Below are positions 20,117 through 57,935 of a DNA stretch of 64,000 nucleotides, one piece after another. The notes under the pieces are model-generated. The model made no database searches. It was not told the DNA's origin and saw only the letters and a program-made list of their open reading frames with translations. The position numbers were made by a program, and so were the translations under genes. Location: contig DVGG01000026.1 of assembly GCA_018712825.1 (NCBI GenBank), positions 55,171 through 119,170 on the forward strand, given 5' to 3'. Source of the DNA: Candidatus Faecousia excrementipullorum (GTDB lineage: Bacteria; Bacillota; Clostridia; Oscillospirales; Oscillospiraceae). Position 1 is the first letter of the stretch. Each line of letters starts with the position of its first letter.

Positions 20117-20373
20117 TGATATGTAATGGCTATGAATGGGCTGCCCCAGGCGGTAACTCCCATACAGCGAAGACGGATTGGTGTGAGCCGTCTTGGGGGT
20201 GCGGACGGGCCTTCTCCCAGGAGCTGCCGCCTGAAAGATAAGTAGGGTGTGCCGGGTGACTCCGTTATGGGTCTTTGGTGTAGCAGCACCGAGAGTGCGC
20301 CGAACGGCGAATTGCGGGTGGTACCGCGGAGGTCAATGCCTTCGTCCCCAGGGGGACGGGGGTTTCTTTTTTT
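20117..20373 (+). promoter_or_regulatory. T-box leader upstream of pheS (tRNA-Phe responsive by context)
   Basis: T-box core GCGGGTGGTACCGCGGA at about 20314-20330, followed by terminator CGTCCCC-AG-GGGGACG...TTTCTTTTTTT. Confidence 0.93.
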
Positions 20374-49716: not shown

Positions 49717-50811
49717 TTACACTCCAAACAATGCGGCGATTTCCGCCTCATTCAGCTGGGCACCGATGACGCACACCTTGCCGGTGATGGCGGCGCTGCC
49801 GGTACGCACATCTGCTTCCTGAGGCACATGGTCAAAGTGAATCCAGGTGCCGTCCTGGGCTTCCACAATGCCCTTGGCCCGGAGCACCGTGCCGTACTTG
49901 CCGCTGTCCAGAGCTTCCAGAGCCTGGGTAATCTGCTCTTTGGTGAACTTCCGGGCCGTTTCCACACCCCAGGAGGTGAACACCTCGTCGGCATGGTGGT
50001 CATGGTGATGGTGACCGCAGCCGCAGCCTTCCTCGTGGTCATGGTGGTGATGGTGTCCGCAGCCGCAGCCTTCCTCATGGTCATGGTGGTGGTGTCCGCA
50101 GCCGCAGCCTTCCTCGTGGTCATGGTCGTGGTGGTGTCCGCAGCCGCAGTCCTCTTCGTGGTCATGGTGATGATGGTGGTGCTCCTGCTCCATCTGGGCC
50201 AGCTCTGCTGCCAGGGTTGCCTTGCCCTCCATGGCCTCCACTATCTGGGCTCCGGTCAGGGCGTTCCAGGGGGTGGTGACAATGGTGGCCTGGGGATTCA
50301 GCTCCCGGAGCAGCTCCACCGCCTTATCCAGCTTGTCCTGGGGGATGGCGTCCGTCCGGGACAGAATGATGGTGGAAGCGGTCTGCACCTGGTTATTATA
50401 GAACTCACCGAAGTTCTTGCTGTAGGATTTTACCTTGCCGGCGTCCACCACCGCCACGGTATAGCCCAGGGTCACATCCTCGCCGGTTACCTTGTTCACC
50501 GCACCGACGACATCGGAAAGCTTGCCTACGCCGGAGGGCTCAATCACAATCCGGTCGGGGTGGTAGTCCGCAATCACCTGGGTCAGGGCCTTGCCGAAGT
50601 CGCCCACCAAGCTGCAGCAGATGCAGCCGGAGTTCATCTCCCGGATGTTGATGCCTGCATCCTGCAAAAAGCCGCCGTCAATGCCGATTTCTCCAAACTC
50701 GTTTTCAATCAGCACCAGCTTCTGGCCCTGGTAAGCCTCCTGCAGCAGCTTCTTAATGAGGGTGGTTTTGCCTGCGCCCAGGAAACCACTGTAAATATCA
50801 ATTTTTGTCAT
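49717..50811 (-). CDS. CobW/COG0523 family GTPase with His/Cys-rich metal-binding insert
   Basis: IYSGFLGAGKTTLIKKLL; GCICCSL; (H)nDHEE(D/G)CGCG repeats. Confidence 0.94.
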   Translation of the reverse strand: MTKIDIYSGFLGAGKTTLIKKLLQEAYQGQKLVLIENEFGEIGIDGGFLQDAGINIREMNSGCICCSLVGDFGKALTQVIADYHPDRIVIEPSGVGKLSDVVGAVNKVTGEDVTLGYTVAVVDAGKVKSYSKNFGEFYNNQVQTASTIILSRTDAIPQDKLDKAVELLRELNPQATIVTTPWNALTGAQIVEAMEGKATLAAELAQMEQEHHHHHHDHEEDCGCGHHHDHDHEEGCGCGHHHHDHEEGCGCGHHHHHDHEEGCGCGHHHHDHHADEVFTSWGVETARKFTKEQITQALEALDSGKYGTVLRAKGIVEAQDGTWIHFDHVPQEADVRTGSAAITGKVCVIGAQLNEAEIAALFGV

Positions 50812-51080
50812 AATCAAACACCTTCTGTAAATTCAGTACAACCGTCAAAACGCCCCGGACTTCCGGGAAAGGGGCTATATAAAATCGCCCTTTTGACCGT
50901 TTGCACTATATAGTATAGCACTTTCAAAGGAATATGCAAGGAAAAAATCCCCGGGTTCTCGACAGCTTCCCCTTGCATATCCCAGCGCCTGTATCATAAG
51001 GTATATACGGCGGATATTTTCTCCCAATGCGACATCCGCCAAAAATGCCGCTGCGTATCTCCCACGCAGCGGCACCTTTT

Positions 51081-52840: not shown

Positions 52841-53539
52841 TTAACCGCCCAGATAGGCTTTTCGTACTTCGTCGCTGCTAATAAGCTCTGCACCGGTACC
52901 GGAGAGGGTCAGGGTGCCGGTTTCCAGCACATAGGCCCGGTCTGCAATCTCCAGGGCCTTACTGGCGTTCTGCTCCACCAGCAAAATGGTGGTGCCGGCC
53001 TTGTGAAGCTCCCGGATGATGTCGAAAATCTGGTCCACCAAAATGGGGGCAAGACCCATGGAGGGCTCATCCAGCATCATAAGCCGGGGCTTGCTCATAA
53101 GAGCCCGGCTCATGGCCAGCATCTGCTGCTCGCCGCCGGAAAGGGTACCTGCCACCTGCTTACGCCGCTCCTTCAGCCGGGGAAACAGGGTGTAGACCCG
53201 CTCCAGCTCCTCTTTGGAGACCTCTTTCTGGGTAAAGGCACCCATTTCCAGATTCTCCTGAACGCTCATTTGCAGGAAAATCCGCCGCCCCTCCGGCACA
53301 TGGGCAAGGCCATGGCGCACCAGCTTATAGGCATCGGTGTGGGTAATGTCCTGGTCCATGAAGGTGATGGAGCCGCTGCGGGGGTGCATAAGGCCGGAGA
53401 TGGTTTTAAGGATTGTGCTCTTTCCGGCACCGTTTGCCCCAATCAGAGCCACAATCTCCCCCTGATTGACCTGAAAGCTCACCCCTTTGACTGCGTGGAT
53501 GGCTCCGTAATAGACATGAATATCCTGAATTTTCAGCAT
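52841..53539 (-). CDS. livF: Branched-chain amino acid ABC transporter ATP-binding protein LivF
   Basis: MLKIQDIHVYYGAIHAVKGVSFQVNQGEIVALIGANGAGKST; LSGGEQQMLAMSRALMSKPRLMMLDEPSMGLAP. Confidence 0.95.
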   Translation of the reverse strand: MLKIQDIHVYYGAIHAVKGVSFQVNQGEIVALIGANGAGKSTILKTISGLMHPRSGSITFMDQDITHTDAYKLVRHGLAHVPEGRRIFLQMSVQENLEMGAFTQKEVSKEELERVYTLFPRLKERRKQVAGTLSGGEQQMLAMSRALMSKPRLMMLDEPSMGLAPILVDQIFDIIRELHKAGTTILLVEQNASKALEIADRAYVLETGTLTLSGTGAELISSDEVRKAYLGG

Positions 53540-53542
53540 AAC

Positions 53543-54385
53543 TTAACCATCCTTTCGTCCCAGGTAAGCCTCAATTACCGCCGGGTTCTGCTTGATCTGC
53601 TCCGGGGTGCCCTTGGCAATGACCCGGCCGTAGTTGACCACCATGATGGCCTCGCACACATTCATCACCAGGTTCATGTCATGCTCAATGAGAAAAATGG
53701 CAATCTGGAAGGTATCCCGGATTCTGCGGATCTGGTGCATCAGCTCTGCGGTTTCGCTGGGGTTCATGCCTGCCGCCGGCTCATCCAGCAGCACAATGGA
53801 GGGGTTGGTGGCCAGAGCCCGGACGATTTCCAGCCGCCGCTGGACGCCGTAGGGCAAGGCTCCTGCCTTCACATTTGCCACATCCGTAAGACCCATAAAG
53901 TCCAGAAGCTCCATTGCCCGCTCGTTGGCCCCCCGCTCCGCCTTATAGTAAGGGGGAAGCCGCAGAAGTGAGGACAGGAAGGAACACTTGATGGAATTGT
54001 GCATGCCCACCTTCACATTGTCCAGAGCCGTCATCTCGGAAAACAGCCGGATATTCTGGAAGGTTCTGGCGATGCCCAGCCGGTTGACCTTGGCGGTGGT
54101 CATGCCCTTGGTGTCGATACCATTGAGAAGAATGGAGCCCCGGGTGGGCTGATACACGCTGGTCAGAAGGTTAAAAATGGTGGTCTTGCCGGCACCGTTG
54201 GGGCCGATGAGGCCGGAAATCTCCGTGGGGCCGATGGACATGGTGAAACCGTCCACCGCCGTCAGGCCGCCGAAGTCAATGCCCAGGTTCCGCACATCCA
54301 GCACCGGCTGCTTATCCGTATCCTGTTCCCGCAAAAGGTTTGTGGTGGTAACCTCCACCATTTTTCTGGAATATTCCTCACGCAT
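53543..54385 (-). CDS. livG: Branched-chain amino acid ABC transporter ATP-binding protein LivG
   Basis: LGIDFGGLTAVDGFTMSIGPTEISGLIGPNGAGKTTIFNLLTSVYQPTRGSI. Confidence 0.95.
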   Translation of the reverse strand: MREEYSRKMVEVTTTNLLREQDTDKQPVLDVRNLGIDFGGLTAVDGFTMSIGPTEISGLIGPNGAGKTTIFNLLTSVYQPTRGSILLNGIDTKGMTTAKVNRLGIARTFQNIRLFSEMTALDNVKVGMHNSIKCSFLSSLLRLPPYYKAERGANERAMELLDFMGLTDVANVKAGALPYGVQRRLEIVRALATNPSIVLLDEPAAGMNPSETAELMHQIRRIRDTFQIAIFLIEHDMNLVMNVCEAIMVVNYGRVIAKGTPEQIKQNPAVIEAYLGRKDG

Positions 54386-55466
54386 GGTCGGCCGCCCCCT
54401 TTCTGAAAATTTTGTTTTTCTGCTTGCCCAGCCACAGCCGGACTACCTGCATCTTGCCCTTCACCTGGGGAGACCAGGTGCACAGCATCACCACAATCAG
54501 CACCACCGCATACAGAATCATGCGGAGGTCCTGCAAGCCCCGGAGCAGCTCCGGCAGCAGGTACAGCACTGTGGCGGAAATCACGGAGCCCAGGATGTTG
54601 CCCATGCCGCCCAGCACCACAAACACCAGGATGTTGATGGAGTTGGTAAAGTCAAATTTATCCGCAGTAATGGCAGAGTAATTCTGGGCGAACAGAGCGC
54701 CTGCCATGCCTGCCAGGACGGAGGCCACCACGAAGGCCTTCAGCTTGAAGGCAGTGACATGGATGCCTACGCACTCAGCTGCAATCCGGTTGTCCCGGAT
54801 GGCCTTGATGGCCCGGCCTTCCTTGGAGTTGATGAGATTCAGCACCACAAACAGGGTGAAGAGAATCAGCAAAAAGCCTGCGGTAAAGGAGGAGAGTTTT
54901 TCAATTCCCGTGGCACCCATGGGGCCTTTCAGGAGCATGGTGCCCCCCTCTTCCAGGGATACGCCGCCGGCGCTCATGGCAAAGTGGAGCCCGGTTGCAT
55001 CCTTGCCGATATAGATGTTGCCGATGATATTCTTCAGGATTTCACCGAAGGCCAGGGTGACGATTGCCAGATAGTCGCCCCGGAGGCGAAGCACAGGCAC
55101 GCCGATAATCACACCGGCTACACCTGCCATCAGGCCGCCGCCTACCATGGACAGCACCAGCCGCAAAGCGTCGCTATCCACTGCGCCCTTCAGGCTTCCG
55201 GAAATCACCACGCCCACAAAAGCACCCACGCCCATAAAGCCTGCATGGCCCAGGCTCAGCTCACCGGAAACGCCCACCACCAGGTTCAGGGAAACTGCCA
55301 TTACAATGTAGGCGCAGATGGGAACCAGATAGCCCTGGGTGGACCGGGACAGCATATCCTGGCTGGACAAAATTTGCAGCACCAGAAATGCCACCGTCAC
55401 CGTTCCGTATGTAAGCAGGTTGGTTTTGTATTTCTGCCAGATATTTTGTAAACGCATACCCATCAC
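54378..55466 (-). CDS. livM: Branched-chain amino acid ABC transporter permease LivM
   Basis: VGVSGELSLGHAGFMGVGAF; LRLRGDYLAIVTLAFGEI. Confidence 0.94.
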   Translation of the reverse strand: MMGMRLQNIWQKYKTNLLTYGTVTVAFLVLQILSSQDMLSRSTQGYLVPICAYIVMAVSLNLVVGVSGELSLGHAGFMGVGAFVGVVISGSLKGAVDSDALRLVLSMVGGGLMAGVAGVIIGVPVLRLRGDYLAIVTLAFGEILKNIIGNIYIGKDATGLHFAMSAGGVSLEEGGTMLLKGPMGATGIEKLSSFTAGFLLILFTLFVVLNLINSKEGRAIKAIRDNRIAAECVGIHVTAFKLKAFVVASVLAGMAGALFAQNYSAITADKFDFTNSINILVFVVLGGMGNILGSVISATVLYLLPELLRGLQDLRMILYAVVLIVVMLCTWSPQVKGKMQVVRLWLGKQKNKIFRKGAADHA

Positions 55467-55467
55467 C

Positions 55468-56349
55468 TTACACTTTCTCCTGGATGTTCTTGCCCAACAG
55501 GCCTGCCGGCTTCACCAGCAGCACCACAATCAGCACCAGGAACACCACTGCATCGGAAAACTGGGTGGAAATATAGCCCTTGGTAAAGGTCTCTACCAGC
55601 CCCAGCACCAGGCCGCCCAGCATAGCCCCCGGAATGGAGCCGATGCCGCCAAACACTGCCGCCGTAAAGGCCCGGATACCGGGCATGGAGCCGGTGGTGG
55701 GCTGGAGGGTGGGCACGGTGGAGCACAGGAGAATTCCCGCAATGGCTGCCAGGGCAGAGCCGATGGCAAAGGTCACGGAAATGGTGCGGTTCACATGGAT
55801 GCCCATAAGCTGGGCTGCATCCCGGTCCTCGGAAACCGCCCGCATGGACTTACCGATTTTGGTTTTCTCCGTGAAAAGCACCAGAGCAATCATAATCACA
55901 ATACAGGTGATGACTGTTACCAGCACCTCGCCGGTGATGGTCACCTGGCCGTCAAAGAGCTTGATGGGGGAAAAGATCACGATACTGGTGAAGTTCTTCG
56001 GATCGCTGCCCCAGATCAGCTGGGCGGCATTTTGCAGGAAGTAGCTGGCGCCGATGGCGGTAATGAGCACCGCCAGGCTGGGTGCGCCCCGCAAAGGACG
56101 GTAGGCCAGGGCCTCAATCACCACACCCAGCACCACACAGCCCACCATAGCCACCAGAATACTCAGGTAAGGGGACATATGGAGATAACTGGTAACCGAG
56201 AAGGAAATATAGGCACCCACCATAATCACATCACCGTGGGCAAAGTTCAGCATCTTGGCAATGCCATAAACCATGGTATAGCCCAGGGCGATAATGGCAT
56301 ACACAGCACCGATACTGATACCGTTGATGGTATACTGTAAAAAATCCAT
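55468..56349 (-). CDS. livH: Branched-chain amino acid ABC transporter permease LivH
   Basis: INGISIGAVYAIIALGYTMVYGIAKMLNFAHGDVIMVGAY. Confidence 0.95.
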   Translation of the reverse strand: MDFLQYTINGISIGAVYAIIALGYTMVYGIAKMLNFAHGDVIMVGAYISFSVTSYLHMSPYLSILVAMVGCVVLGVVIEALAYRPLRGAPSLAVLITAIGASYFLQNAAQLIWGSDPKNFTSIVIFSPIKLFDGQVTITGEVLVTVITCIVIMIALVLFTEKTKIGKSMRAVSEDRDAAQLMGIHVNRTISVTFAIGSALAAIAGILLCSTVPTLQPTTGSMPGIRAFTAAVFGGIGSIPGAMLGGLVLGLVETFTKGYISTQFSDAVVFLVLIVVLLVKPAGLLGKNIQEKV

Positions 56350-56471: not shown

Positions 56472-57623
56472 TTATTCGATACCTACATAAACACCGTTTT
56501 CAATCTTCACAGCCTTGGGCTCCTTGGAAACGGCACCGTCTGCGCTCCACTGCATTCCCTCACCGGTCAGACCGTCAAAGCTCATGGACAGGACCTGCTC
56601 CATCAGGATTTCACAAATCTGCTCTGCAGTCATATCCGGAGTAACCTTACCGGCTTCACAGGCAGCTGCAATCACGTAGGCCACGTCGTAAGCATCCGCA
56701 GCGAACTGGTTGGGGGCAATGCCAAACTTCTCGGTATAGTTCTTTACGAAGTTCTGGGTCTTTTCGTCGGTTGCGGTGGCATCGAAGGGGGTCAGGAGCA
56801 TGACGCCCTCGGCCAGAGCCGGGTCAAAGCCTTCCACAGCCAGGATGCCGTCCAGGCCGTCACAGCCGAAGAACTTGGGGGTGTAGCCAATCTTGTCAGC
56901 ATAGGTCAGAACCTGGGTAGCTTCTGCGGCGTAGATGGGCAGGAAAATCAGGTCGCAGCCGGCAGACTGGCACTTGGTCACCTGAGTGGTCAGGTCTGCC
57001 TTGTTGTCTTCGGTAAAGGCTTCCACTGCCACCACATTCAGGCCAATTTGATTGGCTCTCTCCTGGAACTTCTCGTAAATACCGGAGGAATAGGGGTTGG
57101 AGGAATCATAGATAACACCGATGGCAGTGCCCAGATTGTGCTGGGAAATGTAGTCGGCAGAGCCAACGCCCTGGTTGGGGTCGGTAAAGCAGATCTGGAA
57201 GATGTTGTCACCGGCGGCAATGACGGATACATCGGAAGCGGAGGGGCTCATCATGAACACCCGGTCAGCTGCACACTCAGCAGCGGTAGCAGCTGCAGAG
57301 ACGGAGGTGGTGGGGCCTGCCATAATCTGCATACCCCAGTCCATCAGGGCGGTGTAAGCGTTGACGGCCTTCTCAGCGTCAGCTTCGTCGTCCTGGGCAT
57401 TGACCTCAAACTGCAGGCCGCCCTGGGCATTGATCTCCTCAAAAGCCAGCTTCAGGCCGTTGGCAACGGCGTTGCCGTACATAGCGTTGCCGCCGGTGAG
57501 AGGACCGCTGGTGCCGACCTTGATCACTCTGGCGGCTTCCTCTTCCCCTTCCTTGGGGGCGCAGCCGACAAACATGGTTGCTGCCATACATGCGGCCATT
57601 ACAAATGCAAATACCTTCTTCAT
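56472..57623 (-). CDS. livK: Branched-chain amino acid ABC transporter substrate-binding protein
   Basis: Signal peptide/lipobox MKKVFAFVMAACMAATMFVGCAPKEGEEEA; VIKVGTSGPLTGGNAMYGNAVANGLKLAFEEINAQGG. Confidence 0.94.
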   Translation of the reverse strand: MKKVFAFVMAACMAATMFVGCAPKEGEEEAARVIKVGTSGPLTGGNAMYGNAVANGLKLAFEEINAQGGLQFEVNAQDDEADAEKAVNAYTALMDWGMQIMAGPTTSVSAAATAAECAADRVFMMSPSASDVSVIAAGDNIFQICFTDPNQGVGSADYISQHNLGTAIGVIYDSSNPYSSGIYEKFQERANQIGLNVVAVEAFTEDNKADLTTQVTKCQSAGCDLIFLPIYAAEATQVLTYADKIGYTPKFFGCDGLDGILAVEGFDPALAEGVMLLTPFDATATDEKTQNFVKNYTEKFGIAPNQFAADAYDVAYVIAAACEAGKVTPDMTAEQICEILMEQVLSMSFDGLTGEGMQWSADGAVSKEPKAVKIENGVYVGIE

Positions 57624-57656
57624 AAAAATCTCCCTTTCATTTTCCTTTTATAAAAG

Positions 57657-57686
57657 GAAGCGGCTGTGCAGATACACAACCGCTTC
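57657..57686 (-). terminator. Hairpin between small ORF and livK (possible attenuator)
   Basis: GAAGCGGTTGTG-TATCTG-CACAGCCGCTTC-CTTTT on minus strand. Confidence 0.7.
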
Positions 57687-57708
57687 TTCTATACCATAAA
57701 AAGCGGTG

Positions 57709-57876
57709 CTATGGGGCCAACAGCAGAGCCAGCAGGCTTAGGGACAGCGTGCAAAAAATGGACATTGCCAAAGCAGCAATGTCCATAATCATGCAGGCGC
57801 GCACAGAGGTACCCGCTGCGGAAGCGTTCATGCAGCAGTCAGACCAATTGGAAGAAGCATTGTGGAAAGCCATCAT
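57709..57876 (-). CDS. Small 55-aa ORF with Leu-rich C-terminus; candidate leader peptide of the liv operon
   Basis: MMAFHNASSNWSDCCMNASAAGTSVRACMIMDIAALAMSIFCTLSLSLLALLLAP; SD AAGGAGG; strong promoter upstream. Confidence 0.6.
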   Translation of the reverse strand: MMAFHNASSNWSDCCMNASAAGTSVRACMIMDIAALAMSIFCTLSLSLLALLLAP

Positions 57877-57906
57877 TGTCTTGTACCTCCTTGTTAAGAT
57901 GTTCAC

Positions 57907-57935
57907 ATTGTATCCCAGAGGCGTACATTTGTCAA
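57907..57935 (-). promoter_or_regulatory. Sigma-A-type promoter of the livK upstream small ORF
   Basis: TTGACA-N17-TACAAT on minus strand. Confidence 0.85.

Follow-up and report, generated by a model that had tools for sequence, protein, structure and literature searches.

Results

The livK leader and its operon

The window (the whole 64,000-nucleotide stretch of DNA analysed, from Candidatus Faecousia excrementipullorum) carries on its minus strand five liv genes, which are preceded by a promoter, a short open reading frame (ORF) equipped with a Shine-Dalgarno sequence (SD), and an intrinsic terminator. The first gene, livK, starts 85 nt 3′ of the stop codon of the leader ORF, and livH, livM, livG and livF come next. 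The products match family models for branched-chain amino acid (BCAA) transport proteins; because the model scores lie below curated cutoffs, we infer substrate specificity from homology and the gene set.

57935-57907, minus strand: promoter TTGACA-N17-TACAAT, sigma-70 type, 11 of 12 consensus matches
57892-57886, minus strand: SD of the leader ORF, AAGGAGG
57876-57709, minus strand: leader peptide ORF of 55 codons, MMAFHNASSNWSDCCMNASAAGTSVRACMIMDIAALAMSIFCTLSLSLLALLLAP, ATG at 57876, TAG at 57711-57709
57806-57812, minus strand: anti-SD within the ORF, GTACCTC, the complement of GAGGTAC (57889-57883)
57790-57802, minus strand: candidate segment 1 (GCG...TGCATG), pairing with CAT-A-GCA-C-CGC at 57713-57703, which spans the stop codon
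57786-57758, minus strand: hairpin C inside the ORF, ATGGACATTGC/GCAATGTCCAT, directly 5′ of the Leu run
57718-57747, minus strand: run of regulatory codons (44-53), seven of them Leu
57707-57701, minus strand: segment 2, 5′ arm of the antiterminator, ACCGCTT, starting one base past TAG
57685-57679, minus strand: segment 3, AAGCGGT, which is both the 3′ arm of the antiterminator and the 5′ arm of the terminator
57653-57686, minus strand: intrinsic terminator, hairpin at 57686-57657 with a short U tract
56472-57623, minus strand: livK, substrate-binding protein (Peripla_BP_6)
55468-56349, minus strand: livH
54378-55466, minus strand: livM
53543-54385, minus strand: livG
52841-53539, minus strand: livF

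The promoter, the SD and the 55-codon frame had been described in a sequence-only reading of this DNA, and each is present where it was placed; the peptide ends in TLSLSLLALLLAP, with seven Leu among its last 13 residues. Three promoter-like sites occur in the 451-bp region, compared with 0.7 expected from shuffled sequence. In the aligned upstream regions of 13 relatives, TTGACAAATG of the promoter region is invariant and the -10 region nearly so, and the extended promoter pattern has a single occurrence in the source genome. Elsewhere on the minus strand of the window (49717-50817), we recognized by eye a GTPase-like ORF with a GFLGAGKTT motif and repeated His-rich stretches (HHHHHHDHEEDCGCG), which suggest a metal-binding insert.

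Distribution and conservation of the module

We located LivK homologs in relatives and in named genomes and read their upstream regions. About 40 genomes of the same genus carry the module upstream of livK, one copy each, with an SD-equipped and hence predicted translated ORF. The peptides have diverged strongly; what is kept is the order of promoter, ORF, in-ORF hairpin, stop codon at the antiterminator arm, and terminator. The comparison of livK 5′ regions that the sequence-only reading had proposed as a check therefore comes out in its favor, in that ORF placement, hairpins and branched-chain codons are all conserved in relatives.

At E<=0.01, a covariance model of the region from stop codon to terminator (model R1) has matches in 64 of the 136 genomes of the genus, and the module lies upstream of livK in 43 of the 50 matches retrieved. 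All 45 genus matches at E<=1e-4 sit at liv loci, including one (G140) whose contig stops at the beginning of a livK-like gene, and the source genome has one good copy. Six non-liv loci among the retrieved matches (E>=2.5e-4) resemble ordinary terminators, and we rejected them as further targets of the element within the genus. Upstream of livK in four relatives (L015, L031, L032 and L153), promoter and terminator remnants are retained, neither the leader ORF nor hairpin C is recognisable, and the attenuator was apparently lost.

Among 251 genomes of the family, model R1 has one match outside the genus, a Phe-rich leader at another gene. This leader (L170; minus strand of genome G553, from another genus of the family) comprises the ORF MTMRTVSGMNTLSVVGSSFFSFSKARFFAGLFCRAEKPILSDS, which contains six Phe codons, and a strong terminator behind it; it lies upstream of a gene for an ABC TrpX-like substrate-binding protein (165 bits, below cutoff); judging from its sequence, it is possibly a Phe attenuator.

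Terminator, antiterminator and ribosome position

The terminator claimed for 57657-57686 holds: the hairpin has 13 pairs as scanned and is followed by a weak tail, CTTTTAT. Across 19 sequences it is conserved, with 94% of cells paired and covariation greater than in all shuffles. The sequence overlapping the stop codon had also been proposed to pair with AAGCGGT, and the complementarity of ACCGCTT (57707-57701) and AAGCGGT (57685-57679) is indeed perfect. Pairing between a species' own arms exceeded that of arms swapped across species both in the first set (15 representatives; p=0.0028) and in an independent set of 22 new genomes (p=5e-5), in permutation tests from which phylogenetic relatedness is not fully removed. 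The register varies by lineage, being ACCGCTT/AAGCGGT at livK here and GTAACCG/CGGTTAC, GCGGCCG/CGGCTGC or GCAACTG/CGGTTGT elsewhere, and a plain alignment, in which shifted registers are scored as breaks, has 81% of antiterminator cells paired. The antiterminator is imperfect in L039, in L006 and in the group of L007, L008 and L093. Although the length of the ORF and the peptide vary, the distance from the stop codon to the antiterminator arm is at most about 6 nt in almost every leader.

Folding was computed with a ribosome footprint set at each codon of the window leader and of nine others. While the ribosome occupies the Leu run of the window leader, the antiterminator has a predicted probability of 0.85-0.97, which falls to 0.06-0.00 once the ribosome has reached the final two codons and the stop. 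A similar drop near the stop is predicted in eight of the nine other leaders; the exception is L162, in which the antiterminator was not seen in these folds and segment 3 is possibly mislocated. In the computed structures, then, there is a mutually exclusive antiterminator that depends on the position of the ribosome.

In equilibrium folding without a ribosome the antiterminator is favored, and such folds alone do not prove switching; a constitutive, partial terminator behind an incidental ORF would involve none. Such an arrangement is extremely improbable, because the covariation of the antiterminator in two sets and the conserved placement of the stop codon need a switch to explain them.

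A candidate fourth segment and a stem that sequesters the SD

The sequence-only reading recognized three segments instead of the classical four. Those three stand, but a candidate for the missing one adjoins the 5′ side of hairpin C, and its partner, at and after the stop codon, overlaps segment 2. Comparable pairings occur in other leaders (e.g., GCGCCCCT/AGGGGCGT in L160, CATATTATA/TATAATATG in L162 and ATCCCC/GGGGAT in L126). Covariation between segments 1 and 2 gave p=0.083 in the discovery set, 0.024 in the new genomes and, once the windows had been narrowed post hoc, 2e-4, the signal being weak within the window's own clade. Segment 1, less well supported than the other elements, is probably the fourth segment, which would recover the classical four-segment layout. 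Because the equilibrium fold favors the antiterminator, the off state of an untranslated leader would rest on pairing between segments 1 and 2 and on kinetics.

The SD of the leader can itself pair with the anti-SD inside the ORF, and own-species pairing again exceeds cross-species swaps in two sets (p=0.0019 and 0.0022). A comparable self-limitation of translation is known from the trp leader of E. coli.

A probable sensor of branched-chain amino acids

If the ORF encoded a functional small membrane peptide, the terminator would serve only to reduce the expression of livK relative to that of the ORF. The C-terminal stretch is hydrophobic, the ORF has an SD, and its frame is conserved: indels have lengths that are multiples of three in 27 of 45 cases within the ORF and in 11 of 53 downstream. 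But the peptides have diverged almost completely and match no protein family in a family-model search, and the tails, some of them polar (L039, L165), are often of 9-15 residues, when a membrane helix needs more. Moreover, substitutions between close relatives fall on the three codon positions 90, 71 and 83 times; since there is no excess at the third position, the exact peptide is little constrained.

What is retained is the class of residue. Between close relatives, 182 of 197 BCAA sites remain BCAA, and across 35 leaders Leu, Ile and Val make up 9.4% of residues before hairpin C and 53.5% from hairpin C on (V 20.5%, L 20.2%, I 12.7%), so the sensor would read branched-chain amino acids generally and not leucine alone. 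Of the earlier claim of a Leu-rich leader, the seven Leu codons thus survive, but sensing restricted to leucine does not. The tails are also poor in Phe, Met, Trp and Tyr: the ratio BCAA/(BCAA+FMWY) is about 0.91 in them and 0.73-0.74 in LivH and LivM, membrane proteins with 33% BCAA and proportionally more of these four residues. This strong preference for Leu, Ile and Val over Phe, Met and Trp, together with a stop codon fixed at the antiterminator arm, makes a functional membrane peptide very unlikely. Judged from the substitutions and indels, a codon sensor fits better than a functional small protein.

Hairpin C and divergent leaders

Hairpin C is the most widely retained element of the leader, kept with compensatory changes in 43 leaders, ten divergent ones among them. 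The hairpin that the sequence-only reading saw within the ORF is therefore real; the tail given as T6 is T5 when a paired T is excluded, and this run is not conserved in relatives, which have ATTTG. We rejected a role for hairpin C as a second terminator because conservation extends to the hairpin but not to its T run.

The ten divergent leaders (Oscillibacter sp. CAG:155, O. valericigenes, L022, L025, L092, L174, L179, L182, L184 and L186) lie upstream of livK elsewhere in the order and are unrelated in sequence but of the same layout, with a BCAA-poor start, a hairpin that in most of them has a GG.C...GTCC-like frame, and then a BCAA-rich run; most have a clear terminator shortly past the stop codon. 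Their hairpins were found by a best-hairpin search, which inflates the pairing statistics. No antiterminator is recognisable at the stop codon in these ten. The genomes of L022 and L025 are listed as belonging to the same genus as the window, yet their leaders are of the divergent type. A DNA pattern for the Oscillibacter-type hairpin had no matches in 394 genomes of the order, either because the pattern is too strict or because these genomes are without the hairpin.

Very long BCAA-rich leaders of 88-97 codons, with long runs of Ile, Val and Leu, also occur upstream of livK in Oscillibacter and a relative (L025, at 1054-1347; L074; L108); no antiterminator was recognized at their stop codons.

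Relation to known RNA families

No Rfam family reaches its gathering cutoff at the livK leader, and the T-box covariance model (RF00230) has no match there. The nearest scores were for nqrA-II (RF04310; 27.3 of 55 bits) and Termite-leu (RF01730; 18.5 of 51 bits), both below the gathering cutoff; we rejected membership in either, the weak overlap reflecting a hairpin/terminator layout. Apart from the livK leader, the window has a T-box-like match on the plus strand (20123-20352; G000:C70:75293-75522) at 69.4 bits, the gathering cutoff being 93, and seven more T-box matches lie elsewhere in the source genome.

The extent of conserved structure could also point to a metabolite- or protein-sensing RNA akin to a riboswitch, with the SD stem and hairpin C as the sensor and the ORF as secondary, and a livJ riboswitch candidate is known from Streptomyces (PMC11109978). 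Here, however, the structure lies within a frame predicted to be translated, linkers and stem sequences are highly variable, and the most consistent features are the BCAA codons and the position of the stop. Given these features and the Rfam result, we consider such a sensor very improbable.

Discussion

The anatomy of the leader, its conservation, covariation and codon bias, and the predicted dependence of the switch on ribosome position were all seen computationally. They strongly support, in silico, the leader-peptide attenuation proposed in the sequence-only reading, with its conserved ORF placement, branched-chain codons after a hairpin, and covarying antiterminator and terminator at the stop codon. 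We consider it very probable that the leader is a ribosome-mediated transcription attenuator that ties transcription of livKHMGF to the supply of branched-chain aminoacyl-tRNAs.

A first ribosome would start on the exposed SD while the leader is being transcribed, and the SD would later fold with the in-ORF anti-SD, which may limit re-initiation. Hairpin C probably pauses the polymerase, synchronising it with the ribosome, and may also juxtapose segments 1 and 2. When charged Leu-, Val- or Ile-tRNA is scarce, the ribosome would stall in the codon run, leaving segment 2 free to pair with segment 3, so that the terminator would be blocked and livK transcribed. With ample supply, a ribosome at the stop codon would cover segment 2, and segments 3 and 4 would form the terminator. 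From the computed features we infer that the ribosome stalls and the polymerase pauses, that transcripts terminate in vivo and that amino acids elicit a response, and we likewise infer what state the leader takes when it is not translated.

The mechanism is a known one; what sets this leader apart is that it has a hairpin within the ORF and a stem at the SD, and that its target is a transporter. In the trp, leu and ilv leaders of E. coli, a four-segment logic operates in which a ribosome at the stop codon masks segment 2. In those leaders the first hairpin contains or follows the regulatory codons, whereas in the livK leader the codons come after a hairpin that lies within the ORF. BCAA operons are reviewed in PMC6123439. 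Ribosome-mediated attenuation has also been described in a review for BCAA biosynthesis in Gram-positive bacteria. The ilv-leu leader Rli60 of Listeria monocytogenes is a ribosome-mediated attenuator with a 13-aa leader peptide, controlling biosynthesis and itself under CodY control (PMC5864092). Like the livK leader, it is from Firmicutes, encodes a BCAA-rich peptide and has overlapping antiterminator and terminator hairpins (PMC5864092); unlike it, the livK leader precedes a transport operon, encodes 39-56 aa, and has an in-ORF hairpin and an SD-sequestering stem, and CodY was not found in the source genome. The Leu-responsive ilvD attenuator of Staphylococcus aureus likewise combines a Leu-rich peptide with a terminator, but belongs to a biosynthetic operon, and we found no conserved in-ORF hairpin described for it (PMC5794164). 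In Actinobacteria, the Corynebacterium ilvBNC attenuator (ilvB-II motif), also biosynthetic, has a 15-aa leader and a proposed transcriptional pause hairpin (PMC11857589, PMC10272879); it shares antiantiterminator, antiterminator and terminator hairpins and BCAA codons with the livK leader, with no evident relation in sequence.

Conserved RNAs are also found 5′ of LIV-type binding-protein genes elsewhere. The livK motif is an Rfam RNA of Pseudomonadales. The livJ motif of Streptomyces is a proposed riboswitch (PMC11109978), and the leader described here, scoring below every Rfam cutoff, differs from both. We found no published description of the element in the open literature, where most subscription journals are missing.

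It is conceivable, though unlikely, that these leaders form a class serving transporters in many genera, whose ancient core would be a hairpin within the ORF, ahead of the sensing codons, acting as a gate that pauses the polymerase and is released by the ribosome; the peptide, the antiterminator and even the amino acid specificity would have been exchanged around it. If so, the Phe-rich leader before the TrpX-like gene would be its aromatic version.

Transcription-translation coupling in Firmicutes is debated, and with its conserved hairpin ahead of the sensing codons this leader is a case in which such synchronisation could be tested. The BCAA leader-peptide attenuators that we found in the literature control biosynthesis; with the livK leader, the mechanism would reach a high-affinity transporter of BCAA as well. 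Its hosts are mostly uncultured gut Oscillospiraceae, CodY was not found in the source genome, and the element would provide a direct handle on the sensing of gut BCAA by bacteria of this kind.
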